Assembly: GCA_903842595.1 (NCBI GenBank)
Contig: CAIMMO010000002.1
Location: 1 to 64,000 of the forward strand
DNA length: 64,000 nt
Source: an uncultured Alphaproteobacteria bacterium
Lineage (GTDB): Bacteria; Pseudomonadota; Alphaproteobacteria; Caulobacterales; Hyphomonadaceae
Direction: 5' to 3'
Shown here piece by piece: positions 10,736 to 48,799 of the stretch (position 1 is the first letter of the stretch; each line of letters begins with the position of its first letter). The notes under the pieces are model-generated. The model had not been told where the DNA came from. It saw nothing but the letters and a program-made list of their open reading frames with translations, and did no database searches. The translations under genes and the position numbers were made by a program.

Positions 10736-10741
10736 GACTTC

Positions 10742-11856: not shown

Positions 11857-12054
11857 ATGTCATTCGATCTGCAATTCATCCGCGACCGCGCTCCAACTCA
11901 CGTCGTGCTGCAGCGCCAGCACGCGATTTACCTTGACGCGCAACGCTCCGACCGCAAGGTCCGGAAAGCGCGCAACGTGGCAGACTTGCTCGAGCGCGGC
12001 CACCGCGCTCGCGGCGGCGCCTACACCGCCTTGGTCATCGACGTGAAAACCTGA
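11857..12054 (+). CDS. Hypothetical protein of about 65 residues
   Basis: Short reading MSFDLQFIRDRAPTHVVLQRQ with a C-terminal half LLERGHRARGGAYTALVIDVKT. No ribosome site decides the start; ATG 11833 and GTG 11803 are also in frame. Composition is protein-like (mixed charged and hydrophobic strands) but I recognise no family. It ends 19 bases before the convergent gene at 12074. Confidence 0.4.
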   Translation: MSFDLQFIRDRAPTHVVLQRQHAIYLDAQRSDRKVRKARNVADLLERGHRARGGAYTALVIDVKT

Positions 12055-12073
12055 GAAGGCGTGAAGCCCGGTC

Positions 12074-12352
12074 CTAGCGGGATAAACCGCTGTCGGACAA
12101 TTCGCGCAGCCGCAGCCAGTTGAACAACAACTGCTCGATCTCCCGGATGCTCGGCCATTCCTGCGCGGTCCGCACAATCGTCGTCGGCCCCGCCGCGCCC
12201 GCCTCACCCGCCGGCCCATCAATGATCCTGATGCTTTCAAGATCGGACGTGAGCGCGTCAGCCATTTCAGACAACAGCGACGCAAGTTCCCCCAGGCGCG
12301 CTTCCAGCACGTCGAGTTCGACCTTGAAGGCGCGGAGGGGCGGGCCGCTCAT
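12074..12352 (-). CDS. Hypothetical coiled-coil protein
   Basis: Protein of 92 residues. The first half (FKVELDVLEARLGELASLL, EMADALTSDLESI) is a heptad-like helix that should form a coiled coil. A glycine-rich hinge with GPAGEAGAAGP follows, then a second helix with IREIEQLLFNWLRLRELS. ATG 12352 has AGGA six bases upstream. Not recognised; a small structural or adaptor protein is possible. Confidence 0.5.
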   Translation of the reverse strand: MSGPPLRAFKVELDVLEARLGELASLLSEMADALTSDLESIRIIDGPAGEAGAAGPTTIVRTAQEWPSIREIEQLLFNWLRLRELSDSGLSR

Positions 12353-12697
12353 ATGCGTCCTGCGAAGAAAGCGGATACTTCCGTCGATCGCGAAAACCAT
12401 ATTGCGGGAGCGCCCGCGCCGCGTCGCGCCGACGCACGGGCGGGCGAAGATGCCGGCGCTTGCAGGCCAGCAGCAGAAAACTGTTTGACAACAGCGCCTC
12501 ACGCGGAAGGCTTCCACGCCAGACAACCTCTCGCGTCGCGATCTGCCACGCGCCGGTTCAGGCTTCCTGCCCACCAATGCTGAAACGAGCCAACTCCGGC
12601 GTTAACTCTTTTTTCCTGCAAAACAGCCTTCGGCGCTTGTATTCATTAAGGTGCGATTCACTGCAGCGGCACATACTGCCTAGTGTGGGAGTGTGCC
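12353..12697. other. Intergenic stretch between divergent small genes
   Basis: About 345 bases between the minus-strand gene at 12074-12352 and the plus-strand gene at 12698. AT-richer near 12600-12660, which probably contains promoter elements. No gene or clear repeat seen. Confidence 0.5.
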
Positions 12698-12997
12698 ATG
12701 AGCGCTGCTTTGACAGGCGCGATCGGACCCGTTTCGGTCCGGTACGCCGCACAGATCAGGGAACTGCTTTTCGCGCAGGCGATCCAGCGCATGGCCGCCG
12801 ATCAGGAGGCCGCGCGCGCCCAGTCGCAGGCCGAGCGAGCCGCACGCGTCGAGCCCGCGTCGAAGGCCGAAACCACCCTTAAAGCTGTCCACGCGCGTAC
12901 CACTCCGCCGGAGCCCGTCAGCGCTTCGGAGCGCGTAGCAGAAACCGCGCACGCGGCGACAACGCCGACTGCGCGCCTGGTCGATATCCAGGCCTGA
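12698..12997 (+). CDS. Small Ala/Thr-rich hypothetical protein
   Basis: Protein of 99 residues from ATG 12698 (MSAALTGAIGPVSVRYAAQI). An N-terminal amphipathic helix with LLFAQAIQRMAADQEAARAQ is followed by a long Ala/Thr/Pro/Glu-rich, probably disordered part and the tail TARLVDIQA. The plan resembles the gene at 11503. Unknown function. Confidence 0.5.
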   Translation: MSAALTGAIGPVSVRYAAQIRELLFAQAIQRMAADQEAARAQSQAERAARVEPASKAETTLKAVHARTTPPEPVSASERVAETAHAATTPTARLVDIQA

Positions 12998-13060
12998 TCG
13001 TCGGTGCAGGTGTCCTTCCTTCTGCTGGCGCCGTCGTTCCAGGGCCGCTCAACTTGACGT

Positions 13061-13699
13061 ATGCTGTCTCCCCCTGAAACGCCTTCTCCCGCCTATCTGC
13101 GCTTCACGCAGTCGATGATGATCGACTATGACAAGTGGAGAGAAGGCGCGCCCTACGACCTCGCTGCGCTTGCCGGGATCACAACCGAGGAACGCGAGCT
13201 CCTCACCGGAGAAATCTGCCAGCGCAGCTCGCTCGACTGGCGCGATGTCGAAGCCCTCCGCGCGCTCGCCACACCGAAAGCGATCAACCGCATCGGCAAG
13301 GCCGCCGAGAAGCAGACCGACGGCGCCGGCATCGAGGCCTTCCGCGACGAGGTCGAAACCTACGGCTGGACCGCCGACATCGAACGCCGCTTCATCCAAA
13401 AACTCGAAGCCGCCGCGTCCATGGCCGGCGCGCTCGATCGCCTCTACGACATCGCCGAGGCGCACCCGTCCCGTGCCGTCATTGCCCAGATCTTCCGCAA
13501 CGCCCGCATCTCCAGCGACCACACCGTCCGCTATTCAATGGGTGCCTTGCTGTTGCAGCTCGCGGGTCACGTTGAAAGCCGCGACGTCTTCGATACGGAC
13601 CACCGCCCGCACCTGCTAAACCTCAACAGCGCCGACTATGCCAGCTGCAAGGCTGCCGTCGCGTGGCTGCAGGACAAGATCGCGACCCCGAAGCGCTGA
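13061..13699 (+). CDS. Hypothetical helical protein
   Basis: Soluble protein of 212 residues, mostly helical, with charged/hydrophobic periodicity (TTEERELLTGEICQRSSLDW, DVEALRALATPKAINRI). It looks like short HEAT- or ankyrin-like helical pairs, which is only an impression. The start is uncertain: ATGs at 13115 and 13118 are in frame and none has a good ribosome site. No family recognised. Confidence 0.55.
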   Translation: MLSPPETPSPAYLRFTQSMMIDYDKWREGAPYDLAALAGITTEERELLTGEICQRSSLDWRDVEALRALATPKAINRIGKAAEKQTDGAGIEAFRDEVETYGWTADIERRFIQKLEAAASMAGALDRLYDIAEAHPSRAVIAQIFRNARISSDHTVRYSMGALLLQLAGHVESRDVFDTDHRPHLLNLNSADYASCKAAVAWLQDKIATPKR

Positions 13700-13921
13700 T
13701 CGAAGTCGGGTCTCGCCCCTTTTCAAGCGCCAACTGCGTGGCGCGATCGCCATGGGCGACCGCCTCGGCTATATCCGCATCGATACAATCTGCGAATGGG
13801 TCGATGCGGACGCGCGCTGAACTTCGAGAAGCCTCGGTCAGGCGAACGGCATCCCATTTCGTCGACCCGAAAACTCAGAACCGGCCGGGTAGCGCAGGAA
13901 GCTCTTTGGGCCCGACCCGGA

Positions 13922-14344
13922 TCAGTTTTCAGGCGGCGGCGTAACCTCGCATTGTGTCGCGCCCTGGCGTGGCCGCCAGCCGTGCAAGTCGAAGTCGACC
14001 ACAGGCAAATCCATGTCGGATGCCGTAGAGGATTTTCCGACATACTGGCGCTGCGCCGCCGGTGGAACGTAAGCACTCCGGTTCAGGTCGTCGTTTGCAG
14101 TGCCGCCACCGCGTTTTTCGAGATTCACACACCAGGGTTGCGTGTCGTTGTTGTAGGCAAACCAGATCACTGCGTGCGACATCTCGCCGAAATAGTCGTT
14201 CCACCAAAAACCGTACTCTCGCTGCAACTGGAGGCCTTGGTCATCGAACAGGATTTCTATTTCCTCAGCCCGCCACACCCGCGAGGTGGTGTCGCACCCC
14301 CCCAACAGAACAGCGCCCGCCAATGCAATCGTCGCGATCCGCAT
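13922..14344 (-). CDS. Small hypothetical lipoprotein
   Basis: Lipoprotein of 140 residues with a short signal MRIATIALAGAVLLGGC whose lipobox LLGGC predicts lipidation at Cys17. The mature part is rich in Trp and Tyr (YGFWWNDYFGEMSHAVIWFAY) and ends in a polar tail. No family recognised. Probably outer-membrane anchored. It lies downstream of the VOC gene on the same strand with an 80-base gap. Confidence 0.65.
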   Translation of the reverse strand: MRIATIALAGAVLLGGCDTTSRVWRAEEIEILFDDQGLQLQREYGFWWNDYFGEMSHAVIWFAYNNDTQPWCVNLEKRGGGTANDDLNRSAYVPPAAQRQYVGKSSTASDMDLPVVDFDLHGWRPRQGATQCEVTPPPEN

Positions 14345-14423
14345 GATGTCCCATCTATATCCACAGAAACCCAGCGCCCGACCGTCCGAACCAAGAATGG
14401 GGCCGAACTGATCTCGCGACCGC

Positions 14424-14804
14424 CTAACCCATCCGCTTCAGCGCGCAGATCTTGTTGCCATCCGGATCGCGCAGATAGGCCAGATACATTTCCCCGGCAG
14501 CGCCCTTGCGGATGCCCGGCGGATTCTCGATCGCCGTGCCGCCATTCGCGACGCCCGCGGCGTGCCATGCATCCGCCTGCTCAGGCGTCTCGACCGCAAA
14601 GCCGATCGTGCCGCCGTTCGCGAAGCAGGCCTTCTCGCCATTGATCGGAATGCTCACGCCAAACGTGCCCGTCTTGGTGCGCCAGAACGCGCGCCCCTTG
14701 TCGTCCACGAACCCCGGATTCACGCCCAGCGCGCCGAGCACGGCGTCATAGAACTTCTTCGACTTCTCGAGATCGTTCGTCCCGACCATCACATGTGAGA
14801 ACAT
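14424..14804 (-). CDS. VOC-superfamily (glyoxalase-like) protein
   Basis: Protein of 126 residues with one full vicinal-oxygen-chelate domain built from two beta-alpha-beta3 modules. It begins MFSHVMVGTNDLEKSKKFYD, the standard opening of the family, with the metal-ligand His at position 4. The second module has GFAVETPEQADAWHAAGV and ends YLRDPDGNKICAL. Members include glyoxalases, dioxygenases and resistance proteins, and the substrate is not evident. ATG 14804 is preferred over 14816 because GGAG lies six bases ahead. Confidence 0.85.
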   Translation of the reverse strand: MFSHVMVGTNDLEKSKKFYDAVLGALGVNPGFVDDKGRAFWRTKTGTFGVSIPINGEKACFANGGTIGFAVETPEQADAWHAAGVANGGTAIENPPGIRKGAAGEMYLAYLRDPDGNKICALKRMG

Positions 14805-14886
14805 GCCACTCTCCATTCGCGCCCGTCCGGCGTATGGCCGGACATGCGCGAACGGGCGCGGCTTGGCAATCCTTTCGTAAGGACAG

Positions 14887-15129
14887 CTAGTTCGGCTTGG
14901 TCGACGCGTCGCCGTCGATCGCATCTGCCACCGAGTCCGCATCGTTCCTGCGCTCGGTTCCGACCGTGTTGTCAATCGCCGCGCCGGCTTTTTCCATCGC
15001 GCCATCGCCCAGGTCGCGCTCGCCACGCAGGTCATCAATCGCGTTATCCATGTTCTCGCCGGCTTTTTCGCAAGCGCCCAGCCCCGTGACGCCCAGAATA
15101 GTCACGACCATCATTGCAGCTTTCATCAT
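14887..15129 (-). CDS. Small entericidin-like lipoprotein
   Basis: Lipoprotein of 80 residues. A signal ILGVTGLGAC predicts lipidation at Cys20, followed by an acidic, Ala/Asp-rich, probably disordered mature chain (EKAGENMDNAIDDL). Short lipoproteins of this style are common in Alphaproteobacteria and are often stress induced. AGGA lies seven bases before the ATG. Confidence 0.6.
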   Translation of the reverse strand: MMKAAMMVVTILGVTGLGACEKAGENMDNAIDDLRGERDLGDGAMEKAGAAIDNTVGTERRNDADSVADAIDGDASTKPN

Positions 15130-15395
15130 GTGCAGTCCTCCGGTCGGCGAACGCGCGCCGGGTCCGACGCATCAACGTGCGAGACGCCAATCCGTTTCCC
15201 GCCGCAGACGCAACGCCCGCCACGACGCAGCCGCACGCCCTATCCCGACAAGAAGACACTCACGGACATTCGCGACGACTAGTTCCGTAACGGAAGGCTC
15301 GACGCACCGATGCTGTTCACGACGGCGAGACCACGGCTCGTCCGCGAGCGAACCTTGTGCAAGGATCACATCAAGATCACGCAAGGAACATCTAC

Positions 15396-16439
15396 ATGAT
15401 GCGCTTCTCGGTCCTCTGCACAGCTGCCGCTCTGATCTCCTGTGGCGCCGCCTACGCCCAGGCCGGCGGCCCTATTCCTCGCACCACCGAAGGCAAGCCT
15501 GACTTTCAGGGTGTGTGGACGAATTCCTCGATCACACGGCTCGAGCGCGTGCCAGAATTCAAGGACCTCGTGATTTCAGAAGCCGACGCGAAGCAGTGGG
15601 AGATGGACGCCGCCAGCGTCGCGGCCGCGGACAACGCCCCGACTGCACAGGACAAGGGCGCGCCTGAAGTGGGAGATGATCCCGCCGGCTACAACAATTT
15701 CTGGATCGACCCCGGCAGACAGGTCGGCAAGATCAACGGTACCTACCGTTCGTCATGGATCACCGATCCGCCAAACGGAAAAGTGCCGTACACGCCCGCC
15801 GGCCGCGCGGCGATGATGAAGACGGTTAGCACCTACAACATGTTCGACAATCCGGAGGAGCGCATCCCGATCGAGCGCTGCCTCATCGGCTTCGCCTCGA
15901 CGGGCGGCCCGCCCATGCTGAATGCGCTCTACAACAACCACCAGCAGATCATCCAGACACCCGACGCTATCGCGATCAACATCGAGATGGTTCACGACAC
16001 GCGGATCATCCGGATGAACGGTCAGCACAATCCCGACAACATGCGCCAGTATCTTGGTACCAGCGTCGGCAAATGGGATGGCGATACGCTGGTCGTCGAA
16101 ACCGTCGGCTTCAAGGCGGTAGAAGCGGTACGCGTTGACTTCGGCCTTTTCGTCTACATCTCGCCAGACTCGAAAGTCACCGAGCGCTTCACGATGCGGG
16201 ACAACGATACGATCTTCTACCAGTTCACCGTCGAGGATCCCGCAGCCTACACTCAACCATGGAAAGGCGAGCTCAACTTCCGCCGCTCGCCGGATCGTAT
16301 ATACGAATATGCGTGTCATGAGGGTAACTACGCAGTTCCGAACATCCTTCTTGGCGCGCGCGAGCTGGAACGGGCCGGACTGAAGCAGCCGGTCGTGAAG
16401 CGCGGCATTGGCCGCCTCGACCGTCCGGCGGCCCAGTAG
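15396..16439 (+). CDS. Secreted hypothetical protein, paralogue C of three
   Basis: Exported protein of about 347 residues with a signal peptide ending AAYAQA. It shares the block pattern of the genes at 6910 and 8063: PDFQGVWTNSSITRLER, YNNFWIDPG, SSWITDPPNGKVPY, ERCLIGF, EMVHDTRIIRMN, GKWDGDTLVVETVGF, TERFTM, and ACHEGNYAVPNILLGARELE. It is more diverged and on the other strand. AAGGA lies eight bases before ATG 15396; ATG 15399 is also possible. Function unknown; three copies in 10 kb suggest a role worth duplicating. Confidence 0.82.
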   Translation: MMRFSVLCTAAALISCGAAYAQAGGPIPRTTEGKPDFQGVWTNSSITRLERVPEFKDLVISEADAKQWEMDAASVAAADNAPTAQDKGAPEVGDDPAGYNNFWIDPGRQVGKINGTYRSSWITDPPNGKVPYTPAGRAAMMKTVSTYNMFDNPEERIPIERCLIGFASTGGPPMLNALYNNHQQIIQTPDAIAINIEMVHDTRIIRMNGQHNPDNMRQYLGTSVGKWDGDTLVVETVGFKAVEAVRVDFGLFVYISPDSKVTERFTMRDNDTIFYQFTVEDPAAYTQPWKGELNFRRSPDRIYEYACHEGNYAVPNILLGARELERAGLKQPVVKRGIGRLDRPAAQ

Positions 16440-16582
16440 AGATTGCGACGCCCGGCACCCCCGCGCCTCCCGTGGCTCCCGGCAGCCTCTCGCCGGGAGC
16501 AGGAAGCGCCGGGTACACTGCCGGTTGACCTCCCCCACTCCGCCCGGCCAGTGTCCCCGCGGGAAAGCGCGGAACTACCGGC

Positions 16583-16984
16583 ATGCTCGACGGAATCTTG
16601 AAGACCATCACATCAGCCGCCTTCCTCGGAACGCTCGGCAAGGGCGTCGCCACAGCCGCCTTCATCATCGCCCTGTCGGAAATCGCCAAGCGTTCGACCT
16701 GGCTTGCAGCAGCGCTGGTCGCCCTGCCGCTTGCCACCATGCTCACCGTCGCCATGATCGCGCTTGATTCTCAGAAAGGTGGCGCCGAGGTCGCCACAAC
16801 CTTCGCCCTGAAAACCTTCCTGCTGTTCTGGCCTGGCCTGATCTTCTTCATCGGTCTGCTTGGGCTGCAGAAACTCGGCCTCAGCTTCTGGCCGGCCTTC
16901 GGCGGGTCGGTCATTGCCTGCTTCCTGGCGACATGGGGCTTCTCCGTCCTGCTGACATCGCAGGGCTGGATCGGTAAGGACTAG
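16583..16984 (+). CDS. DUF3147-like membrane protein
   Basis: Inner-membrane protein of 133 residues with four hydrophobic segments. RSTWLAAALVALPLATML and the following acidic loop resemble DUF3147 proteins, small four-helix membrane proteins of unknown function. The next gene starts four bases after its stop, so the two are probably co-transcribed. Confidence 0.6.
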   Translation: MLDGILKTITSAAFLGTLGKGVATAAFIIALSEIAKRSTWLAAALVALPLATMLTVAMIALDSQKGGAEVATTFALKTFLLFWPGLIFFIGLLGLQKLGLSFWPAFGGSVIACFLATWGFSVLLTSQGWIGKD

Positions 16985-16988
16985 CGGC

Positions 16989-17201
16989 GTGCCAGAACTG
17001 AAACTCTCCCGCGCCGCAATCCTCATCGCGCTCGCCGCCGTAGTGGTGGTCGCTCCGCTCATCGGCGTCTACGCGTTCTCCCCTCTGATGTTCGTCGGGG
17101 GCATCGAGCCCTATCAGCTCGCTGTTGCTGTCGGCGTCATGCTGTCCGAAGCCCTCGCCGTCGGCGCGCTCACCTGGCTCGTCATGCGCACGCGGCGATA
17201 G
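16989..17201 (+). CDS. Small two-helix membrane protein
   Basis: Protein of 70 residues starting at GTG 16989, four bases after the preceding stop. Two membrane helices are visible (ILIALAAVVVVAPLIGVYAF and LAVAVGVMLSEALAVGALTW), ending in a basic RTRR tail. Probably translationally coupled with the DUF3147-like gene. Not recognised. Confidence 0.55.
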   Translation: MPELKLSRAAILIALAAVVVVAPLIGVYAFSPLMFVGGIEPYQLAVAVGVMLSEALAVGALTWLVMRTRR

Positions 17202-17214
17202 CGCCTGGCCGCTA

Positions 17215-17355
17215 CAACAAGTCGACCCCCAGCCTGACCGCAGCGGCTCGGCCACCGCCCCAACCAGCGCATCGACCCTGTCCGGCGAGCGAGGCTCGCC
17301 CCGCGGCGCTCCGAACGAGCACATCTCGTCCTCCGGCTCCTTCAGCACGCGCCAT
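17215..17355 (-). pseudogene. C-terminal remnant of a GTA/phage terminase large subunit
   Basis: The minus strand gives RVLKEPEDEMCSFGAPRG and then RSPDRVDALVGAVAEPL. SPDRxDALVWA close after a DQMC-like motif is the typical end of GTA and phage terminase large subunits, and the spacing agrees. Only about 45 codons survive. The upstream side is cut by an IS110-like fragment, and no ATPase or nuclease motif is found elsewhere. It is the first gene in the expected order of the GTA cluster, which fits the remnants at 9.8 to 2.2 kb on the same strand. Confidence 0.65.
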
Positions 17356-17364
17356 GGCGCTGAG

Positions 17365-17770
17365 CTAAGGCATGCGGATGAGAAGAACTGCGGCGATCGT
17401 CTTGCCCACACCAGGCAGTGAGAGAAGAAGGTCGAAGCGCTTGCGCAGGCCATCCTCTATCGGAATGCGGGCGAGAAGGTCTGCGAGGAGCGCCTTGTTG
17501 TCGGCTGCAAGCGTGGCAATCAGGGCTTCGGGGCTGGCCTTGAGATCAGGAAGGCTGGTGCACTCACGATGGTCTTTGTCTGCGCGAGCAGGTCAGCGGC
17601 CGGCACGTAGCAGGCGGTAAGACGCATCGCCACCCCGTTCAGGAGTGGATCTGCTGCGGCTTTGACGCCATCCGCATGGGCGGTGACCGCAGCGATCAGG
17701 TGGACACGGCCCCTCCGCCGGGTCATTCGCCTGGAGGTGGTGCGCCAGGCGGACAATCCCTGAGGACCCT
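17365..17770 (-). mobile_element. IS110-family transposase fragment
   Basis: Translation on the minus strand gives ALIATLAADNKALLADLLARI followed by RFDLLLSLPGVGKTIAAVLL and IRMP, then a TAG. The S(I/L)PGVG..TA..LL block is the signature of the Transposase_20 (helix-hairpin-helix) domain of IS110 elements. Upstream pieces (LLAQTKTIVSA) fit the preceding linker helix in other frames. No complete transposase, DEDD domain or terminal repeats are seen. It abuts the terminase remnant, so insertion here probably helped destroy that gene. Left boundary is clear, right boundary approximate. Confidence 0.55.
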
Positions 17771-17951
17771 CCAATCTAGCAGAGGTGTCACAAACAAGAC
17801 GGCCCTTCGAAGCAGGCGGATGTCGAGCCAACAGGACTACAGTCTGTATCAACACAGGGCCCTCCCCCTAGGGCATGCTTTCCAATTCTTCCGTGAAGGT
17901 CATAGGCTGGCCTCAGACCCGGCAAACGGGCGATCATAGTGGAGGACGGAA

Positions 17952-19724
17952 ATGCGGTCATGCAATTGGACCTGCATCCTGGCGCTCGGCGCCGCGGTCA
18001 TACTTGGCGCCTGCGCCACCGAGCCTGCACATGTCATCCCCGCCACGCCGGCCGAGCGACTCGCCGGCATCCGGCCCGTGACGCAGGCGATGCTGCAGGA
18101 GCCTGCGGCTGGCGACTGGATGCAGCTGGGCCGCTCCTATGACGGACAGAATTTCAGTACGCTGACCACGATCAACCGCACGAACGTGAAGAAGCTCGCG
18201 CCGGCCTGGCGCGCACCGCTGGCGCCGGGGCTCAGCATGCCGAGCCTGCTCGTGCATGACGGCGTGATGTTCCTGCATACCGCGCCGGACACTGTGCTGG
18301 CGCTCGACGCCGTCACCGGCCAGGAAATGTGGCGCAACACCTACAAGCCGGAAGGCGGCTCGTCGATGAAGATGGGCCTGGGCCTCGGCGGCAGCCATGT
18401 GTTTGCGCCGACGTCTGACCTCCATGTGATCGCGATCGATGCGCGCACGGGCGTGACGGCGTGGGACCACAAGATCGCGGTGAGCGCACCGGCGACGAAC
18501 CGCTCCTTCTTCAACCTGCGCAGCGCGCCGCTTGTGGTCGGCGACAAGGTGATCCAGGGCGTCACCGCCAGCGCCGGTCCAGGCGGCGGCTTCATCGTCG
18601 CGCTTGATATCGCGACGGGGAAAGAAGTGTGGCGCTTCCACACGCTCGCGCGGCCCGATGCGCCCGGCGGCAATACCTGGAACGATCTGCCCCTGGAGAA
18701 ACGGACAGGCGGATCAGTCTGGCACCAGGGCACGTTCGACCCCGAGCTCAATCTCCTCTATTTCGGCGCCGCCCCGACCTACGACACCGCTGGCCTGCTG
18801 AAACCCTCGACAGCCCCCGGCGTCACCAACGACGCCCTCTACACCAACGCCACCATCGCCCTCGACCCCGACACCGGCCAGCTGAAATGGCACTACCAGC
18901 ACGTCCCCAACGACCAATGGGACCTCGACTGGGCCTTTGAGCGGACGCTGGCCACGGTCAGGTTTGAGGGAAGCGACAGGAAGGTCGTGATGAATGTCGG
19001 CAAGATGGGGGTGCTCGATGCACTCGATGCCGCGACCGGCGCGTACCTGTTCTCGATCGACGCCGGTACCCAGAACATGATCACCGCAATCGATCCGAAG
19101 ACCGGCAGGAAGACAATCGATCCGCAGCGCTATCCTGACCCCACGCGGCCGACGGTCTATTGTCCGAGTCCGTCCGGCGCGCGCGCGTGGCCGCCGACAT
19201 CCTTCAGCCCGGCGACCGGCATGCTCTACCTGCCGCTTACCGAATGGTGCGCGAAAATGGGCAACGACGGCTCATCGCTTCTGAGTGCGCCCGGCGCCAA
19301 GATCAGCGAGGCCGACCACCCCGACGCCGTGGCCGATGGCAAGATGGGATTGCTGCAGGCGATGGATGTAAGTGGCGGCAAGCGGGCCTGGCGGCGGGAC
19401 CTGGATGCGCCGATTTCGACGTCGGCGCTGGCGACTGCGGGCGGCGTTGTTTTCATCGGCGATCTGGACCCGGCGCTGAAGGCCTTCGACGATCGAGACG
19501 GCGCGCTGCTGTGGACTGCCCCGCTCGACGCCAATCCCAATTCCGTTCTGGCCACCTACAGCGTCGGCCCGACCCAGTATGTCGCCGTTGTCACCGGCAT
19601 GGCCAACTATCACATCGGAGCAATGGCGCCGCGATATCAGAGGTTCCGCGCGTCCCAGGGGCTTCCGCCGATCGCGCCGCCGAAGGGTGAGCCGTCCGTC
19701 CAGGTATTCACACTCAGCAAATAG
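17952..19724 (+). CDS. PQQ-type dehydrogenase (eight-bladed propeller) lipoprotein
   Basis: Quinoprotein-like dehydrogenase of 590 residues. A lipobox VILGAC near residue 20 predicts an outer-membrane or periplasmic lipoprotein. Repeated propeller blades with W-docking motifs are visible (ALDAVTGQEMWRN, AIDARTGVTAWDHK, ALDIATGKEVWRF, ALDPDTGQLKWHYQ), and WDLDW and NVGKMGVLDALD fit the calcium/PQQ region of alcohol-dehydrogenase-type members. There is no CxxCH, so no fused cytochrome c, and I see no adjacent Cys-Cys pair. Electrons would go to a separate carrier. GGAGG precedes the ATG. No PQQ synthesis genes are in the window. Substrate unknown. Confidence 0.85.
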   Translation: MRSCNWTCILALGAAVILGACATEPAHVIPATPAERLAGIRPVTQAMLQEPAAGDWMQLGRSYDGQNFSTLTTINRTNVKKLAPAWRAPLAPGLSMPSLLVHDGVMFLHTAPDTVLALDAVTGQEMWRNTYKPEGGSSMKMGLGLGGSHVFAPTSDLHVIAIDARTGVTAWDHKIAVSAPATNRSFFNLRSAPLVVGDKVIQGVTASAGPGGGFIVALDIATGKEVWRFHTLARPDAPGGNTWNDLPLEKRTGGSVWHQGTFDPELNLLYFGAAPTYDTAGLLKPSTAPGVTNDALYTNATIALDPDTGQLKWHYQHVPNDQWDLDWAFERTLATVRFEGSDRKVVMNVGKMGVLDALDAATGAYLFSIDAGTQNMITAIDPKTGRKTIDPQRYPDPTRPTVYCPSPSGARAWPPTSFSPATGMLYLPLTEWCAKMGNDGSSLLSAPGAKISEADHPDAVADGKMGLLQAMDVSGGKRAWRRDLDAPISTSALATAGGVVFIGDLDPALKAFDDRDGALLWTAPLDANPNSVLATYSVGPTQYVAVVTGMANYHIGAMAPRYQRFRASQGLPPIAPPKGEPSVQVFTLSK

Positions 19725-19803
19725 AGCGCCGGCGCCCCCGGCCACCACCACCCCTTGGCGCCTGACCCCAACGGCGTAGGCTTGCCAAAACCGGAGAAAC
19801 ACA

Positions 19804-20634
19804 ATGGCCCATGCCTACGAAGACATCCTCTATTCCGCCGAGGACGGCGTTGCATGGGTGACGCTCAACCGACCGGACAAGCTGAACGCCTGGCGCGGTG
19901 AAATGGATCGCGATGTGCGGCACGCGATGCGCGCCGCCAGCGATGACGCCAGCGTCCGCGTGATCGTGCTCACCGGAGCGGGCAAGGGTTTCTGCGCCGG
20001 CGCCGACATGGGCATGCTCCAGACAATCCAGTCCGGCGACGCCGCAACGTCGCGCGACGCCGTGAATGCGGCAACGCCTTGGGACGCAAGCGCCAACCCG
20101 AATTTCCAGAAGCAGTACTCATGGTTTCCCGCCGTGCCGAAGCCAATCATCGCGGCCATCAATGGCCCGGCCGCCGGGCTCGGCATGATCATGTCGCTCT
20201 ACTGCGACATCCGCATCGCCAGCGACACGGCGAAGTTCACCACGGCCTTCGCCCGCCGAGGCCTGATCGCGGAGCATGGCATTTCGTGGCTGCTGCCACG
20301 GCTCATCGGCTTTAGCGCAGCGGCGGACCTCCTGTATTCGTCGCGCGTGATTACTGCTACTGAGGCGCTGCACATGCGGCTGGTCAACCGGGTTGTCCCG
20401 GCAGGCGACTTCGCCAGCGAAGTCGCAGCCTACGCCCGCGTGCTCGCCAATGAAGTCTCACCACGCTCGCTGCGCGAGATGAAGCGCGAAATCTGGAACG
20501 CGCAGTTCCAGACCCTCGGTGACGCCATCGAAAGCGCAAACGCCGACATGATCCCCAGCTTCAAGTCGGAAGACTTCAAGGAAGGCGTCGCACACTTCGT
20601 GGAGAAGCGCGCGGCGAAGTTCACGGGGCGGTAG
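19804..20634 (+). CDS. Enoyl-CoA hydratase/isomerase family protein
   Basis: Crotonase-fold protein of 276 residues. Landmarks are VAWVTLNRPDKLNAW at the N-terminus, TGAGKGFCAGADMG (first oxyanion-hole strand), INGPAAGLGMIMSLYCD (second oxyanion-hole strand) and FARRGLIAEHGISWLLPRL. An acidic residue sits at the usual catalytic place in the GLIAEHG segment. It fits the enoyl-CoA hydratase/isomerase group and would act on acyl-CoA thioesters in the cytosol. GGAG precedes ATG 19804. It lies 79 bases after the PQQ-type dehydrogenase, so the two may be co-expressed in a catabolic route, which is inference. Confidence 0.9.
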   Translation: MAHAYEDILYSAEDGVAWVTLNRPDKLNAWRGEMDRDVRHAMRAASDDASVRVIVLTGAGKGFCAGADMGMLQTIQSGDAATSRDAVNAATPWDASANPNFQKQYSWFPAVPKPIIAAINGPAAGLGMIMSLYCDIRIASDTAKFTTAFARRGLIAEHGISWLLPRLIGFSAAADLLYSSRVITATEALHMRLVNRVVPAGDFASEVAAYARVLANEVSPRSLREMKREIWNAQFQTLGDAIESANADMIPSFKSEDFKEGVAHFVEKRAAKFTGR

Positions 20635-20722
20635 ACAACTCGGGGAGTTCGGATATTGGCGCGATCGCGCCTTTGAAAGACTTGGTCAGATTGGGTCACC
20701 CTTTACGGTCTAAGTTCTTTCA

Positions 20723-21040
20723 ATGGCCGTAGTTGCGAAGCGGCGCCACGTTGCTCGTCCCGAGTGGCGAGCGCGCATCGAGGCGGCAACCGGGATAGGG
20801 CCTTCGATTTGTGAAGGTCGTGCCGACGCTGGTGGACGAGCGTATGAGGCACTTGAAGCCGTTAGTCGTGATACAAACACAGACCTGCGCGCTCGCAAGC
20901 TTGCCTTTGAGTTGCTGGAATCGATGGCGATACCGGGGAAGGCGACCGACGGTGCAACGGGCGCTCGGGCTAACTCGTCCTGCCAGACAGCGAAGGACGC
21001 GGCCAAGAGAGTTGCGACAGAGCTAGGCCTGGAAACCTAG
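20723..21040 (+). CDS. Hypothetical protein, uncertain
   Basis: Reading of 105 residues (MAVVAKRRHVARPEWRARIE...) with a helical middle (DLRARKLAFELLESMAIPG) and TAKDAAKRVATELGLET at the end. It is less GC-rich than its neighbours, with no clear ribosome site. It converges on the PBP1A gene with nine bases between. No family recognised. Confidence 0.4.
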   Translation: MAVVAKRRHVARPEWRARIEAATGIGPSICEGRADAGGRAYEALEAVSRDTNTDLRARKLAFELLESMAIPGKATDGATGARANSSCQTAKDAAKRVATELGLET

Positions 21041-21049
21041 CCCGCGCCG

Positions 21050-23032
21050 TTAGCCCCCGTCCCTCGCCTCCACTGCTGCGAACGCTGACGACAGGCGGCG
21101 GTAGAAATTGAGGCGGTCCATGTCTTCGTTGGAGAGGTATTCCTCGGCTTTCTTGGCGCCGGGGAGAGGTTCGGGCGTTATGCCAGCGTGGGCGACCTGC
21201 ATCATGTTGGCCCAGATGCGGGCGGACATTTCCCCGCCGGTGATGCGCGCCATCGGCGTGTCGTCGTCATTGCCGACCCAGATGCCGCCGACGAAGCGCG
21301 TGGTATAGCCGAGGAACCAGGCATCGCGCCATTCCTGGCTGGTGCCCGTCTTGCCGGCAATGTCCCAACCGCCAAAGCGCGCGGCGCCGCCTGTGCCATT
21401 CACAACGACGCGGCTGAGCATGCCGTTCATCTGGGCGGCGAACTCCTCGGGATAGATGCGCGGCGACTGGGCAACGGGATTTGAGTAAAGAAGGTCGCCC
21501 TTCGAGTTGCGGATTTCCTCGATGATATAGGGCGACATCTTGAGCCCACCCTTGGCGAGCACGCCGAACGCCGTGACCATTTCGTAGAGGGTCACCTCAT
21601 CCGAACCGAGCGTAATGGAGGGGAAGTTGTGCAGGTCCGACGTGATGCCGAATTCGTGGGCGAGCGCCGTAACTTTTGGAATGCCGATCTCGTAGCCGAC
21701 CTGCGCCGCCACGGTGTTGAGCGATTCAGCGAGCGCCTCCGACAGGGTCACGGCGCCGCGATACTCGCCACCGTAATTGCGCGGACGCCAGTTCTGGATG
21801 GTCACCGGCATGTCGAAGCGCACCGTGCCTGGCGTCAGCCCGTCTTCGAGCGCGGCGGCAAAGACGAACATCTTGAACGCCGAGCCGGGCTGGCGGCGCG
21901 CCTGCGTGGCGCGATTGAACTTCGATTTCTTGTAGTCGCGCCCGCCGACCATGGCGCGGATCGCGCCCGTTGCGTTGTCGACCACGATCGCCGCGCCTTC
22001 CGACGCGCGACGATCGCGGCCCATGGTAGCGATTCCACTCTCGACAGCTTTCTGGGCCGCCTGCTGCAGCTTCATGTCGAGCGAGAGCTTGATGACCATG
22101 TCCGGCGGCGGATTGGGCAGGAGGTCGGCCACGCGCTCAACCGCGTAGTCCAGCGCGTGGCTCGTGAAGGCGTCTGACTTCGGCGTGACGAAGACGAGTT
22201 GCTGCGCGGCGGCTTCGTCGCGCGCTGCTTTCGTGATGAAGCCAGCCTCGACCATCTGGTCGAGCACGTAGGCCTGACGCTCCTTCGCCTTGGCGCTCTG
22301 GGCCTGCTGGGCCAGGCGCGAGGGCGCCTTGGGGAAGGAGGCGAGCATCGCGGCTTCGGCGATGGTTAGGTCGGTCGGCGCCTTGTTGAAGAAGGTGTGC
22401 GCGGCAGCGTCGACGCCCCAGGCGCCAGCGCCGAGATAAATGCGGTTGAGATAGAGGTCGAGGATGTCGTCCTTGCTCAGCAGCCTTTCGAGGTCGCCGG
22501 CGAGGCGGGCTTCCTGCGCCTTGCGCTTGATCGTCTGGTCAGGCGTTAGGAACAGGTTCTTGACCAGCTGCTGCGTGATGGTGGAGGCGCCCTCAACCGT
22601 GCGGCCGGCGCGGGCGTTGGCCAGCATGGCGCGAATGATCGCCGACATGTCGACACCTGTGTGCTCGCGAAAGCGTTTGTCCTCGGCGGCGATGAAGGCG
22701 TTGGTGACATGCGGCGGCAGCGTCTTGGCGGAGACCGCGCGGCCATAGCGGAAGCCGCGCACGGCGATGGTCTTGCCCTGAGTGTCGATGAATTCCACCG
22801 CGGGCTCGCGGTTCATCGTCCACAGCGTCTCGCGGTCGGGCAGCGCAGGCATCTGCGCGAACAGCGAGTTCCACAGCAGGCCGAAGGTGATAAGGCCGAC
22901 GGCGGCTGCCGTCCCCACGATCTTGAAGATCGGCGGGCCCCATTTCATTAGCGGGCTGCTCACTGCGTGCGTCGCCATGCTCGTGTCGTCAGCCTCCAGG
23001 GGCGATGCGTCCGTCGCCGCCCCCAACTCCAC
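21050..23032 (-). CDS. Penicillin-binding protein 1A, bifunctional transglycosylase/transpeptidase
   Basis: Inner-membrane class A PBP of 660 residues that polymerises glycan strands and cross-links peptides. After a cytoplasmic N-terminus and one membrane helix (VGLITFGLLWNSLF) comes a GT51 domain with FIAAEDKRFREHTGVD (catalytic Glu), EGASTITQQLVKNLFL and LYLNRIYLGAGAWGVDAAA. The transpeptidase has the SxxK serine in PGSAFKMF, the SLN motif in ESLNTVA and the KTG triad in AGKTGTSQEW. The start is a GTG at 23032 with no clear ribosome site; ATG 22978 is an alternative. The family is certain; the number among the cell's PBP1 enzymes is not. Confidence 0.93.
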   Translation of the reverse strand: MELGAATDASPLEADDTSMATHAVSSPLMKWGPPIFKIVGTAAAVGLITFGLLWNSLFAQMPALPDRETLWTMNREPAVEFIDTQGKTIAVRGFRYGRAVSAKTLPPHVTNAFIAAEDKRFREHTGVDMSAIIRAMLANARAGRTVEGASTITQQLVKNLFLTPDQTIKRKAQEARLAGDLERLLSKDDILDLYLNRIYLGAGAWGVDAAAHTFFNKAPTDLTIAEAAMLASFPKAPSRLAQQAQSAKAKERQAYVLDQMVEAGFITKAARDEAAAQQLVFVTPKSDAFTSHALDYAVERVADLLPNPPPDMVIKLSLDMKLQQAAQKAVESGIATMGRDRRASEGAAIVVDNATGAIRAMVGGRDYKKSKFNRATQARRQPGSAFKMFVFAAALEDGLTPGTVRFDMPVTIQNWRPRNYGGEYRGAVTLSEALAESLNTVAAQVGYEIGIPKVTALAHEFGITSDLHNFPSITLGSDEVTLYEMVTAFGVLAKGGLKMSPYIIEEIRNSKGDLLYSNPVAQSPRIYPEEFAAQMNGMLSRVVVNGTGGAARFGGWDIAGKTGTSQEWRDAWFLGYTTRFVGGIWVGNDDDTPMARITGGEMSARIWANMMQVAHAGITPEPLPGAKKAEEYLSNEDMDRLNFYRRLSSAFAAVEARDGG

Positions 23033-43261: not shown

Positions 43262-45640
43262 CTACCGCTGCGCCGGCTCCACAAGCTCGCCACGCGCCCA
43301 GCGGCCAGCCTGCATCACGCTGCCGTCAGGAGCCCACACAACACCCAATCCCTGGCGGGCGCCGCCGGACAGCTCGCCTTCATAGCGTTGGCCGTTGGTG
43401 TATGTCAGCACGCCGCGCGCCGTACCACCGGCGGCCACGCCTGAACCAGCGAGGTTGTCACCGCTCTGCCAGTGCATCACGCCATGACCGCTGGCAGCGT
43501 CGCCGGAATGTTCGCCTTCGTAACGCGCTGCGCGTGCTGCCGCATTCCCGGGATTGTCGGCGAACTCGTAGACACCGATGCCGTTGGCCTGCCCGTTTCG
43601 CAACTCGCCGCGATAGCGGTCACGCGCATTGGGCCCGGCGCCCCGCGTGCGTACGCCCAGACCGTTTGGCGCGCCGCCGGAAATCTGCGCGACATACCTG
43701 TCGCCATTTCCTCCCGTGATGGTCTGCGCATCTTTCAGGGCGTCAGCTGACTGCGCCATCTGCCGCGCCGCAGTCGCACGCTGCACCGCGACTGTCTGCG
43801 CGCGCCGCGCCGCCTCGACCACAGCCTTCGTCTCGGCAGGCAACTGCTCGATGCTGAACGGCGCCGGACGGCTAAGCTTGGCGATCAACGCCTCGGCGTT
43901 CGGCGCACGCGCACCGCTCGGGTAAGCCGCGAGATAGGCGCGGTATCCCGCCAGCGTCCCGTCCCGCTCCGCGATCGCCCACGCCTCGGCCTCCTCGGCA
44001 ATGCGGCTCTGTTGCGCCGCCGCGAGCGAGTCCGCCCCTTGCTCCCTGACGACAACATCTGCGGCACGTGCAGCCGCACTGGCCACCTGGGCTTGCGCCT
44101 GCGCGATGCGCCGCTTGTCCGCCTCGACCGCTGCCGACACCGCTGCGCTCGCCTTGGGTGTCGCCCCGGTGTTGCGAACCGCCTCGGCAAAGGCCCGCAG
44201 GTCACGCGGCGAGGCCGAGCCAAGCGAAGGCGCCAGCTTCCGGTTCGACTGCGCGAATGCGCGCACCGCCTGTGTCGTGGCCTCGTCTGCCTTGCCCATC
44301 ATCTCACCATCATAGAGCTGGAGAGCCGACAACCCGCGCTGAATCTCCTCGATCGCCTGCGACCGCTCCGCGCCAAGCGCCACAATCCGCTCCTCTGCAG
44401 CGCGGCCCATCGCGCCGGGTACAACACCCTCCGCCGGGAATGCCTGAAGGTAGGAACGATAGGCAGCCTCGCTGTCTTCCGTCACGGCCTTGACCCACGC
44501 CTGCGCATCCAGCACGCGCAGGGTCGATCGCGCCGTCTCGGCCGTGCTCGCGCGCGGGAAGGCCGACACATGATCGCGCAGCGCCTCCGCATCGCGGGCA
44601 TCGACCCTGCGCCAGTCCTCGCCGGACTCAGCGGTATCCTCGAACGTTCCCGTCGCGGGCGCCGTGTTCGCGGTCGTCACCTCCGCCACACTCTGCACCG
44701 GAATACCCGTGGCGACCTGCTCCTGAGGCGCCTCGTCGCCACGCCAGCCGAAAGGATCGGCGAGCCACAATCCGACACCTGAACCGATCAGCGCGACCGC
44801 GGCAACCATGGGCACGGCTGCAAACGACCGCTGTTGCTTCTGATAGCGCGACCCGTAGCCGGAACGCCGCACGATCAAGTTGGAGTCATCCAGTCGCTCA
44901 TCGCGCCGCTCCTGCGGCACCCGATAGACTGACTCGGCTAACCGCGGTCCATGCGCGGCTTCGGCGCGATCGACATATCGCGTCGTGTCGCTTTCCGCAT
45001 AGCGCGACGAAGGCGGCGGCTCGTAGCGTGGTTGCGGAGGAGGTGGAGGCGGTTCCGCAAAGCGCGGCGGTGGCGGCGGTTCATACTTGGGAGGTGGCGG
45101 CGGCGACTCGACATGGCGCGGCGGCGCGGGAGCAGGATCGACAAACTCCACTGGCGGAGGCTTGGGGCGCTGGGGCTCCGGCTTGGGCGGCGGCGGTGGT
45201 GGTGGCACAGCCGCCGGCCGCTTCGGCGCAGCCGCCGCAGGGGGCTTGACCGGATCACCCGCGCAGTTGCGCAGCATCGCAGTCAGCCGCCGCCAGTTGG
45301 GATCGTCCGGATCGCCGTTCCACTTGCTCAAGTCCACCGCGTCGAGCTCGTCGAACGGGCGCGGCGGCGCCTCGCCATCGATGCGCGCCTGGATCAGCTT
45401 GTTCTTGTAGAGCCCGGTAGCCGCTTCAGAACGGACATACTCGGACCGCCGCGCACTGTCAGACCACAGCACCAGCACGGCCTTCGACCAGCCCAGCTTC
45501 AGGTCTGCAATCGGGCTCAGATCGGGCTTGGGCTCGGCCGGATCCATCCAGCTGTCCCAGCCCTCCCGACGGAGGAGCTCGCCCACCACCCGGAGTCGAT
45601 CCCGGTCCTGGCGTGCGTATGCAACGTATACATCAGTCAT
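43262..45640 (-). CDS. TIR-domain membrane protein with repeat and MORN modules
   Basis: Protein of 792 residues. Residues 1-88 are a TIR domain (MTDVYVAYARQDRDRLRVV, GWDSWMDPAEP, KAVLVLWS, SEYVRSEAA), with Glu72 at the usual NADase position. Residues 130-212 are Pro-rich. One membrane helix spans 273-294 (FAAVPMVAAVALIGSGVGLW). Outside lie units of the AYRSYLQAFP type (343-372, 391-420, 564-590), a peptidoglycan-binding-like helical stretch (431-465), a coiled coil (500-555) and four MORN-like repeats from 647 (RYVAQISGGAPNGLGV, RYRGELRNGQANGIGV, RYEGELSGGARQGLGV). By topology TIR is inside and MORN in the periplasm. It follows the histidine kinase gene by 91 bases on the same strand. Each module is recognisable; this combination I have not met. 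Confidence 0.8.
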   Translation of the reverse strand: MTDVYVAYARQDRDRLRVVGELLRREGWDSWMDPAEPKPDLSPIADLKLGWSKAVLVLWSDSARRSEYVRSEAATGLYKNKLIQARIDGEAPPRPFDELDAVDLSKWNGDPDDPNWRRLTAMLRNCAGDPVKPPAAAAPKRPAAVPPPPPPPKPEPQRPKPPPVEFVDPAPAPPRHVESPPPPPKYEPPPPPRFAEPPPPPPQPRYEPPPSSRYAESDTTRYVDRAEAAHGPRLAESVYRVPQERRDERLDDSNLIVRRSGYGSRYQKQQRSFAAVPMVAAVALIGSGVGLWLADPFGWRGDEAPQEQVATGIPVQSVAEVTTANTAPATGTFEDTAESGEDWRRVDARDAEALRDHVSAFPRASTAETARSTLRVLDAQAWVKAVTEDSEAAYRSYLQAFPAEGVVPGAMGRAAEERIVALGAERSQAIEEIQRGLSALQLYDGEMMGKADEATTQAVRAFAQSNRKLAPSLGSASPRDLRAFAEAVRNTGATPKASAAVSAAVEADKRRIAQAQAQVASAAARAADVVVREQGADSLAAAQQSRIAEEAEAWAIAERDGTLAGYRAYLAAYPSGARAPNAEALIAKLSRPAPFSIEQLPAETKAVVEAARRAQTVAVQRATAARQMAQSADALKDAQTITGGNGDRYVAQISGGAPNGLGVRTRGAGPNARDRYRGELRNGQANGIGVYEFADNPGNAAARAARYEGEHSGDAASGHGVMHWQSGDNLAGSGVAAGGTARGVLTYTNGQRYEGELSGGARQGLGVVWAPDGSVMQAGRWARGELVEPAQR

Positions 45641-45731
45641 GGCCGCCCCTCTGGGCCGCCCCCGCCGCTAGGCTTCTATCAGTGCAATCGCCGCTTGGGG
45701 AGATGTGCCAGACAAGCACAAGATGGCAAAA

Positions 45732-47096
45732 TCACAGATTTTCAGAGAGCTTTGTCGCATTCGCGTCAGGAAAGAATACCGCAATGCGGGTTCCGCCAGA
45801 TTCGCGTGACGCGATCGTAAGGATTCCACGATGCAGTTCGGCAAAGGCGCGTACGACGGATAGCCCAAGTCCTGCGCCCTTCTGCTTCTTGCCGGCCTCA
45901 CCCTGCTCGAACACACGTGACAGCCGCGTAAGCTCCTCCGGACTGATCCCGACGCCCGTGTCCGACACGGAAAGCACAGACCCGCCCGGGACTTCCTCGG
46001 CAACAACGACGACTTCGCCCCCGGCCGGGGTGAACTTCAGGGCATTGGAGATCAGGTTCAGCGCAATCTGGCGCACGGCTTTCGAGTCGGCGAACGCCTC
46101 GGCATCCTCCGGACCATCGCACACCAGCTCGACCCCCTTCCGGCGCGCCTCGTCCATCATGAACCGGACGGCGTCGTCCGCGAGGTCGGAAAGGCTCACG
46201 GTCTCGGGATAGATTTCGTACTTGCCTGCTTCGAGCCGGGCGAGGTCGAGAACATCATCGACTATCAGGGTCAGGTTCCGCCCACCCTCGTGAATGAGCT
46301 CGGCATATTCCTGATACCGTTCAGGCAGCGGGCCAAACACACCGCTGCGCATCATTTCGGCGAATCCCACGATCGCGTTCAGCGGCGTGCGCAGCTCGTG
46401 ACTGGTCTGCGCGAAAAAAGTTGTGCGCGCTTCCAGCTGATCCTTCGCCGTCTCGGCCGCCTTTCGCGCTTCCAGCGCTGCTTGCGCAGCCTTGCGCAAT
46501 CGGGTTTCCAACTGAGCTAGCCGGCTCGCGGCGTCCACATCGACTGGCGCAGCACGCTGCCGCTCCCGAGGCTCCCTGACGCGCAACGCTGCAATGATCG
46601 CCGTCGACGCGAGCAAGACGAGTCCCGCCGTTCCATAACTGGTTGTCAGGATCGCTGCGTCATGCACATGCAGCCAGCTCCCGTTCGAACCAGCGACGAC
46701 GGCGATTAACAAGCCAAGGATAGCAAAGCCTGCGATCTCGATCGTCAAGCGAACCCTGCCGGACAACCAGGCAACCGCAATCGCGACGCCATATATGACA
46801 ATCAGTGCAGACACGCCGCCCGTGCTCGCCGCGCCCGCTGTTGCGAGGGCGATCCAGAGCGCTGATTCAACTTCGATAGCCTGCGCTTCCGACGTGGAAC
46901 CCCGCATGAAGGCGCCAGCGAGGGGCGGCAGAACCGCACACACGGACACAAGCGCGCTGAGCCAAATCGGCACGCCGAGCGCCAAACTCCATGCGCCAGC
47001 GATGGTTACCAGCCCAAGCCAGATCCCGCCCGCGCCTGTCACGGGCAGCAGCCCGCGACCAAGATACTGCTTGAAGGGTCGGTTCGCATGCCGCAT
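45732..47096 (-). CDS. Membrane sensor histidine kinase
   Basis: Inner-membrane kinase of 454 residues. Five or six helices occupy residues about 20-172 with little periplasmic sequence, as in intramembrane-sensing kinases. A coiled coil (190-225) leads to the dimerisation/phosphorylation domain with FFAQTSHELRTPLNAIVGFAEMM (His233). The ATPase domain has N box NLISNALKF, G1 DTGVGIS, and GAGLGLSVVRAFAELH. There is no receiver domain and no response regulator nearby, so the partner is elsewhere. The TIR gene follows 91 bases downstream in the same direction. Confidence 0.9.
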   Translation of the reverse strand: MRHANRPFKQYLGRGLLPVTGAGGIWLGLVTIAGAWSLALGVPIWLSALVSVCAVLPPLAGAFMRGSTSEAQAIEVESALWIALATAGAASTGGVSALIVIYGVAIAVAWLSGRVRLTIEIAGFAILGLLIAVVAGSNGSWLHVHDAAILTTSYGTAGLVLLASTAIIAALRVREPRERQRAAPVDVDAASRLAQLETRLRKAAQAALEARKAAETAKDQLEARTTFFAQTSHELRTPLNAIVGFAEMMRSGVFGPLPERYQEYAELIHEGGRNLTLIVDDVLDLARLEAGKYEIYPETVSLSDLADDAVRFMMDEARRKGVELVCDGPEDAEAFADSKAVRQIALNLISNALKFTPAGGEVVVVAEEVPGGSVLSVSDTGVGISPEELTRLSRVFEQGEAGKKQKGAGLGLSVVRAFAELHRGILTIASRESGGTRIAVFFPDANATKLSENL

Positions 47097-47215: not shown

Positions 47216-48250
47216 TTGCGTAAGCGGACCAAACTTTGCGCTGTTGCGCTCGTAGTTGCAATCGCTGCTCCGCTGGCGATCAGCCAGGTGTCGCCTGAGG
47301 CTGCTCCAGCGGGCCGGCTCCTGCCGACCACGGCGGCGACCTATGCCGACTATCAGGCCCGGGTCTCCGATATCATGACCAAGGAGCTCGGCGGCGCCGC
47401 CGATCTCGAAAAGGCGATCGACACGTTCGGCGCGCCGAACGTCGGCGAACTCTCGGCCGGCTGGATCTCATACTCGGGCATCCTCGCCGCCCAGCACCCT
47501 GACTTCGTCAAGGAAGTCCGCAACATCGACAACTACTATGGACGCGAGCGCCTTATGCTCGGCCTCGAGCGCGACCTCGGCTATGCCCGCACGCTGAAAG
47601 GCGGAGAGCAGGCGCTCCAGAACGTCCTCGCCGCCAACACGCGCGACACCAGCCGCCTGTCCAGCGCGGGCGCCTTCGTCAAGGAGCAGTCCTACAAGTT
47701 GCAGAAGGTCGGCTGGGGCAAGGAGCGGGTGAAGAATCCCGACGCGATCCTCAAGTCGATGAAGACCTCGACCCAGGCCTCCAAGCCGATCACCGACGCG
47801 GTCTCGAAACTCTTCGCCGGCCCTGATCTCGACGCGATGCTAACGACCATCGCCGTATCGCCGACCACCGCTGACAGCCTCTGGGACAAGTTCTCGGTCA
47901 TCGCCGTCAACGCGCCCGGCAAGGCCCTCAGCAATGTCGCGCCGGTCGCCGTCGCCCAGCAGGACCTCAAGGTCGCGCCGCAGTTCAACGGCACGGCCAA
48001 CCGCATGGTCACGCTGGCCGCGCTCCACGCGATCGACGCCGAAAAGACCAATGGCGAGCAGGTGAAGGCAACCATGGCCGACCCGATGTCGCGCCAGTGC
48101 CTCGAAGAAGCGCAGCAGTATCTCTATGGCTGCGTCTCCACCGCCTACACCCGCTACGAGCTCACCTTCTGCCTCGCCCGGCACGGCCTGCGGTTCGAGA
48201 ACGACAAGGTCCGCTCGATGGGCAGCTGCTTCGCCGAGATCTCGAAGTAG
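47216..48250 (+). CDS. Secreted hypothetical protein
   Basis: Exported protein of 344 residues from a TTG start with GGGAGG six bases upstream. A signal peptide (KLCAVALVVAIAAPLAIS) precedes a mostly helical mature chain with SAGWISYSGILAAQHPDFV, ELTFCLARHGLRFE and four late cysteines, probably in disulfides. No family recognised, although a lineage-specific conserved protein is likely. A strong terminator follows. Divergent from the kinase gene with a 119-base shared upstream region. Confidence 0.75.
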   Translation: MRKRTKLCAVALVVAIAAPLAISQVSPEAAPAGRLLPTTAATYADYQARVSDIMTKELGGAADLEKAIDTFGAPNVGELSAGWISYSGILAAQHPDFVKEVRNIDNYYGRERLMLGLERDLGYARTLKGGEQALQNVLAANTRDTSRLSSAGAFVKEQSYKLQKVGWGKERVKNPDAILKSMKTSTQASKPITDAVSKLFAGPDLDAMLTTIAVSPTTADSLWDKFSVIAVNAPGKALSNVAPVAVAQQDLKVAPQFNGTANRMVTLAALHAIDAEKTNGEQVKATMADPMSRQCLEEAQQYLYGCVSTAYTRYELTFCLARHGLRFENDKVRSMGSCFAEISK

Positions 48251-48307: not shown

Positions 48308-48379
48308 CGGGCCATGCGCAGCTCACGCTCGTCGAGAGAGCCAGTTGCCCTCCGGCGCCAAACACGCCATCTCCCCATC

Positions 48380-48799
48380 ATGACCGTCGCCGACCAAGCC
48401 GCCTCCCTGCGCGAAGATTTCGCCTTTCTCGATGAGTGGGAAGCGCGCTTCACCCATCTCATCGACCTCGGCAAATCGCTTCCGCCGCTGAAGCCGGAGG
48501 AGTATTCCGAGGCCAACAAGGTACGCGGCTGCTCCAGCCAGGTCTGGCTCGTTGCCGAACCCTCGCCCGAAAATCCCGGCGCCATCTGCTTCCGCGGCGG
48601 CTCCGACGCGATGATTGTCGCCGGCCTCGTCGCCATGCTGCTGCACCTGTTCTCCGACCAGCGGCCCGAGGACATCCTTGCCTTCGACGCCCCGGCCTTC
48701 ATGCGCGAGATCGGCATCGCCGACGCCCTCACGCCGCAACGCTCCAACGGCCTCGCCTCCATGCTCCAGCGCATCCGCGCGCACGCGGGCGAAGCGTAG
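48380..48799 (+). CDS. sufE: SufE-family cysteine desulfurase sulfur acceptor
   Basis: Cytosolic protein of 139 residues that takes persulfide sulfur from SufS and passes it to the SUF Fe-S scaffold. Evidence: FAFLDEWEARFTHLIDLGKSLP at the start, the active cysteine in NKVRGCSSQVWL, and GLVAMLLHLFS with an FDAPAFMREIG end typical of SufE. I used ATG 48380; an upstream ATG at 48314 overlaps the terminator tail region. No other suf genes are in the window. Confidence 0.92.
   Translation: MTVADQAASLREDFAFLDEWEARFTHLIDLGKSLPPLKPEEYSEANKVRGCSSQVWLVAEPSPENPGAICFRGGSDAMIVAGLVAMLLHLFSDQRPEDILAFDAPAFMREIGIADALTPQRSNGLASMLQRIRAHAGEA

Follow-up and report, generated by a model that had tools for sequence, protein, structure and literature searches.

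The question raised by this locus is what purpose is served by a protein which joins, in one chain, a TIR domain, a membrane span, helical repeats and a MORN-repeat domain. To our knowledge, nearly all of the bacterial TIR proteins that have been studied are either defence effectors or proteins of pathogens, and searches of the openly accessible literature, judged by titles and the openings of abstracts, returned no description of a bacterial protein with both TIR and MORN repeats. The gene lies in the window, i.e. the whole 64,000-nucleotide stretch of DNA analysed here, from an uncultured member of the Hyphomonadaceae. The reading preferred below, to which a probability of about one half is given, is that the protein is a vertically inherited, receptor-like, single-pass envelope protein with its N terminus in the cytosol, which would serve physiology and not act as a mobile phage-defence module.

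Modular architecture and predicted topology

The positions of the modules and of the conserved neighbouring genes are collected in Table 1. The preliminary description had recognised a TIR domain, a Pro-rich linker, a span, repeats and MORN units within a single 792-residue chain, and Pfam, hydropathy and structural models bear this list out. In the Pfam scan, the TIR_2 match at residues 4–118 scores 41.5 bits against a cut-off of 28 (E 2e-10), and the MORN match, in three stretches, scores 47.4 bits against 22.5 (E 1e-12). The SYL-type units, read by eye at residues ~382–405 and ~554–577 with a degenerate unit at ~341–363, were given no Pfam family name in the scan of the 792-residue protein, and an NCBIfam scan of the same protein gave no match over cut-off. 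The occurrence of homologues with the same module order in other genomes argues that the chain is not a chance assembly.

Table 1. Features of the TIR–MORN gene and its conserved neighbours (positions in the window)
Feature	Position	Strand	Basis
Whole gene: TIR–linker–TM–SYL repeats–PG-binding-like–MORN protein, 792 aa; intact, ATG at 45640, stop at 43262	43262..45640	-	ORF + Pfam
TIR domain with flank, residues 1–139, Glu72 inside	45224..45640	-	Pfam, AlphaFold model
Glu72 codon, candidate catalytic residue	45425..45427	-	Computed from start codon; alignment
Linker, 141 residues (132–272), 30% Pro	44825..45247	-	Composition
Single predicted membrane span, residues 273–293	44762..44824	-	Hydropathy + alignment
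First ectodomain part, residues 336–500: SYL-type helical repeats + PG_binding_1-like stretch (427–466)	44141..44635	-	Pfam + model
Second helical part, residues 541–640, SYL-type unit ~554–577	43721..44020	-	Alignment + model
MORN-repeat domain, residues 641–792	43265..43720	-	Pfam, profile + fold search
DivJ-clade sensor histidine kinase, directly upstream, 91 bp gap	45732..47096	-	Pfam/NCBIfam, tree
Conserved predicted secreted protein, 344 aa, divergent from kinase	47216..48250	+	Genome survey
SufE-family gene, part of ancestral block	48314..48799	+	Neighbourhood comparison

Two of the modules are less secure as shared features. The proposed peptidoglycan-binding-like stretch of the window protein has a marginal PG_binding_1 match (23.4 bits, barely above the cut-off of 23), and it is missing from two distant homologues (L057 and L059), and a family profile searched against solved structures gave one weak match there, to a spore cortex-lytic enzyme (E 0.017). 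Likewise, the linker is indeed Pro-rich in the window protein, but this richness in Pro does not belong to the conserved architecture, the Pro content being 28–32% in four of the 17 aligned sequences and 4–19% in 12 others, that of the remaining one not being measurable since its span was mis-called. The membrane span, by comparison, aligns in all 17 homologues; its hydropathy is weak in L049 and L051 (1.37–1.58), and in L050 a different stretch was mistaken for it by the scan. In the window protein there are five K/R in the 20 residues before the span and one in the 20 after it, an excess shared by 14 of 16 measurable homologues (equal numbers in L058; 0 before and 1 after in L057). By the positive-inside rule, this bias would place the TIR domain in the cytosol, the compartment that contains NAD, and the remainder of the chain in the periplasm (Nin–Cout), in keeping with the topology first proposed.

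In the model of the ectodomain (pLDDT 86, pTM 0.47) ~300 helical residues are followed by the MORN strands, the packing of the domains being unsure because of the low pTM. The matches listed for this model in a fold search of the PDB at E ≤ 0.001 are MORN proteins, the search being dominated by MORN, with the SYL part covered jointly with it. The MORN assignment is thus supported both by sequence and by fold. The PDB entries matched belong to axonemal proteins, junctophilins and MORN1; MORN1-type domains (6t4r, 6t69) and junctophilins have a MORN sheet like that of the window protein, but they are eukaryotic, cytosolic and without a TIR domain.

A likeness in overall layout is offered by the Toll-like and IL-1 receptors, which, as described in two papers (PMC8635717, PMC7075850), have a single span, a cytosolic TIR domain and a repeat domain outside the cell. 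The polarity of the window chain is however reversed, the TIR domain being N-terminal, and its repeats are of SYL and MORN type, not LRR or Ig; no homology between the ectodomains was found, and the word ‘MORN’ does not occur in PMC7075850.

The TIR domain and its candidate catalytic glutamate

The AlphaFold model of residues 1–139 (pLDDT 85, pTM 0.80) has a TIR fold, and its structural matches include the TIR domains of a Hydra receptor, SPARTA, SARM1 and AbTIR (fold-search Z of 16.3 for 4w8g, the best, 16.1 for 8fex and 12.9 for 7uxu). In a sequence-profile alignment Glu72 lines up with the last Glu of the corresponding stretch of AbTIR and PdTIR, the position also of the catalytic Glu of SARM1. 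The residue is kept in all 17 aligned homologues, and its position is occupied by Glu in each of 80 related TIRs, which upholds the earlier proposal that it sits in the catalytic position of the domain. Four residues before the catalytic Glu, TIR NADases have an important Trp (WxxxE). In the alignment of the 80 TIRs that position is Trp in 56 and Tyr in 10, and in the window protein it is Tyr68, such that the Trp of the WxxxE motif of TIR NADases and cyclases is absent from it. Taken together, the domain is a candidate NAD-cleaving or NAD-cyclising enzyme. With the bacterial TIR NADases (AbTIR, PdTIR, the TIR-APAZ of SPARTA) and with SARM1 it has in common the fold and the conserved Glu, and it differs from them in its span, its MORN ectodomain and the Tyr in place of Trp; those proteins are soluble or part of soluble complexes. 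The Pfam model of the Thoeris protein ThsB (ThsB_TIR) scores below its cut-off in the window protein (15.3 against 21.2 bits).

The presence of Tyr68 speaks for the possibility that the TIR domain is a non-catalytic scaffold, binding to itself, to another TIR domain or to a kinase, and that the protein is a structural organiser of the envelope or pole. MORN repeats are commonest in scaffolds, as the PDB matches above illustrate, and the kinase and TIR genes occur together in 16 of 16 loci, both of which would sit well with such an organiser. Glu72, however, shows no variation, the most diverged members included, a stricter conservation than a pure scaffold needs, and a purely structural role is considered distinctly unlikely.

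Comparison of the window gene with its near-identical counterpart in G006, a single pair with small counts of changes, gives a dN/dS of 0.146 for the whole gene (57 synonymous and 25 other changes), 0.044 for the TIR part (7 and 1) and 0.193 for the MORN part, with 0.107 for the kinase gene; a stretch of 43 residues after the span has one synonymous and three other changes. More widely, Glu72, the span and the MORN region, on which the preliminary description had staked its case, are all conserved among the homologues. In one of these (L058, in G092) the MORN part lies in a different frame from the TIR part (~8223–11094, minus strand), probably by a frameshift; G092 is the one member of the clade with a single-contig genome.

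Inheritance and genomic setting

A full match to the TIR and C-terminal parts was found by protein search at one place in 14 of the 15 genomes of the genus, in one of which (G012) a contig end falls inside the gene. The fifteenth (G010), which is 73% complete, gave no such full match and also lacks the 344-residue neighbour. Of 105 genomes of the family 18 have a match at E ≤ 1e-20, and within a clade of the Hyphomonadaceae the gene is single-copy in each genome. Its site is conserved in this clade, being one chromosomal location beside the same kinase and SufE genes. In each of the 16 clade loci (that of the window, 13 further ones from the genus, and those of G092 and G101) this histidine kinase gene immediately precedes the TIR gene in the same orientation. 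Two homologues from MAGs of Hirschia and Ponticaulis (L057, L059) are not accompanied by it. Of 11 hand-picked loci from other genera of the family, all keep the pair of 344-residue and SufE genes, 10 have the kinase gene as well, and none carries the TIR gene. The block thus exists in related genera in the absence of the TIR gene, which is most simply explained by a single gain of that gene behind the kinase. The 344-residue predicted secreted protein, to which no Pfam family could be assigned, is present in 101 of 105 genomes of the family and in 185 of 200 of the order.

It had been suggested that the layout is suited to triggering loss of NAD upon phage attack or envelope damage; on this view the protein would be an alarm whose TIR domain destroys NAD and so arrests or kills the cell. 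Indeed, the TIR fold is near those of the NADase TIRs of SPARTA, AbTIR and SARM1, the Glu is invariant, and the ectodomain appears suited to sensing the envelope. Against this, no PADLOC model matches the protein, and of its ten neighbours (~38–50.6 kb) nine have no PADLOC match and the kinase has one weak match (18.6 bits) in its ATPase region, such that there is no convincing defence gene, and no Thoeris thsA partner, among them. Moreover, defence genes are usually patchy in distribution, whereas this gene occupies a fixed chromosomal site in one copy throughout its clade. The defence setting in the preliminary description was thus not supported, and the fixed site and the ancestral block also rule out a mobile defence island as the default explanation. 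Killing by an NADase upon envelope damage is not favoured by the evidence here over physiological signalling, and an NAD-destroying alarm is overall considered rather unlikely.

The gene might also be a passenger, which landed once behind the kinase and does an unrelated job from its own promoter. The gap between kinase and TIR genes is 65–249 bp by longest open reading frames (91–281 bp to the conserved start, once N-terminal extensions are removed), which leaves room for a separate promoter. The GC3 of the TIR gene (0.76) is slightly different from that of the kinase (0.71) and of other neighbours (0.83–0.87), and other TIR–MORN proteins work without this kinase. A simple consensus scan of 45500–45900 found no promoter- or terminator-like site, however, and adjacency is held in every clade locus though TIR identity to the window protein drops to ~40%, which together make a passenger highly improbable. 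The TIR gene is perhaps co-expressed with the kinase.

The TIR–MORN combination extends beyond this clade. In 21 of 78 loci one open reading frame holds both matches (four being Pfam-checked), among them the Alphaproteobacteria TIR–TM–MORN proteins L076, L081, L095, L113, L120 and L125 and the Ponticaulis and Hirschia forms, L074 and L077. These proteins differ from that of the window in being shorter, mostly without the PG-binding-like stretch and, as far as seen, outside the kinase locus. Their TIR domains also fall outside the clade formed by the 15 kinase-linked TIRs (support 0.93), in a tree whose deeper nodes have support of 0.32–0.42. In two loci the modules are split between head-to-head frames, one with MORN and one with TIR but no MORN, the two frames lying in L114 at 715–2427 (minus) and 2379–3677 (plus), as checked by Pfam, and in L130 at 6265–7986 (minus) and 7980–9230 (plus); this arrangement, like a split form of the fusion, suggests that TIR and MORN may work together even when split.

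Other TIR genes were also encountered. Two TIR membrane proteins encoded in tandem, one of ~300 residues and several spans (both of the copies scanned contain DUF805) and one of ~345 residues and a single span, occur in 19 hand-picked loci (L076, L081, L082, L083, L087, L088, L090, L092, L095, L097, L098, L101, L103, L105, L108, L110, L113, L115 and L126) with a partly conserved gene neighbourhood, and appear to be an inherited pair. In contig C16 of G005 (3811–22449) six TIR matches lie within ~19 kb, several of them ~1.7–1.9 kb apart, as a local array of TIR paralogues.

The neighbouring kinase and a possible role

The best NCBIfam match of the kinase is DivJ (NF050805), at 226.8 bits over the kinase core only. 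This is far below the profile cut-off of 1000 bits, which is passed in none of the 105 family genomes, and in the genome of the window a PleC-type kinase of 777 residues scores slightly higher on the same profile (234.9 vs 226.4 bits). In a FastTree phylogeny of 44 kinase cores, the kinases linked to the 344-residue protein group with the DivJ of genome group f2 and the DivJ-like kinases of genome group f4 (support 0.987), and kinases of ~800 residues join the PleC-type ones (support 0.939), the label PleC being given by length and by the match to the 777-residue query. At the level of the kinase core, this settles the placing of the neighbouring kinase as a predicted relative of DivJ, apart from PleC. 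In f4, all 16 of the DivJ-profile matches listed (E ≤ 1e-90) are divergent from an adjoining homologue of the 344-residue protein. In f2, the home of the true DivJ genes, the 344-residue match and DivJ lie apart in the eight genomes compared (G133, G156, G160, G176, G184, G200, G204 and G216), and therefore the synteny stops short of the canonical DivJ family.

DivJ has a muramidase as its partner, SpmX, and a role of the TIR protein as a replacement for SpmX was considered and found to be unsupported. GH24 genes, presumably those of SpmX, occur as open frames of 445–524 residues in 14 of 15 genomes of the genus, and the copy in the genome of the window has a GH24, Pro-rich and hydrophobic C-terminal layout.

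With such a neighbour, a polar or cell-cycle role is the first candidate for the receptor-like protein preferred here. In the periplasm, the SYL repeats, the PG-binding-like stretch and the MORN sheet would sense, or anchor to, the cell wall, the surface of the membrane or a partner in the periplasm as their putative ligand. Given the predicted topology, clustering or a conformational change might then gather the TIR domains in the cytosol, where they could cleave or cyclise NAD, if catalysis occurs, and/or serve as an assembly surface. The role would be to report on the state of the envelope or cell pole, perhaps tied to the upstream kinase through presumed co-transcription and a supposed link to DivJ. 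A more specific version, in which a housekeeping envelope receptor resembling the Toll-like receptors in layout reads the state of the wall or pole through its PG-binding and MORN ectodomain and passes an NAD-derived signal, or an assembly of TIR domains, to the DivJ polarity pathway, the supposed setting of its gene, is tentative and, taken as a whole, unlikely.

Should the physiological reading be true, TIR signalling would be shown to have a place in the everyday life of bacteria, and it could then be tested whether signalling by transmembrane TIR proteins is older than immunity.
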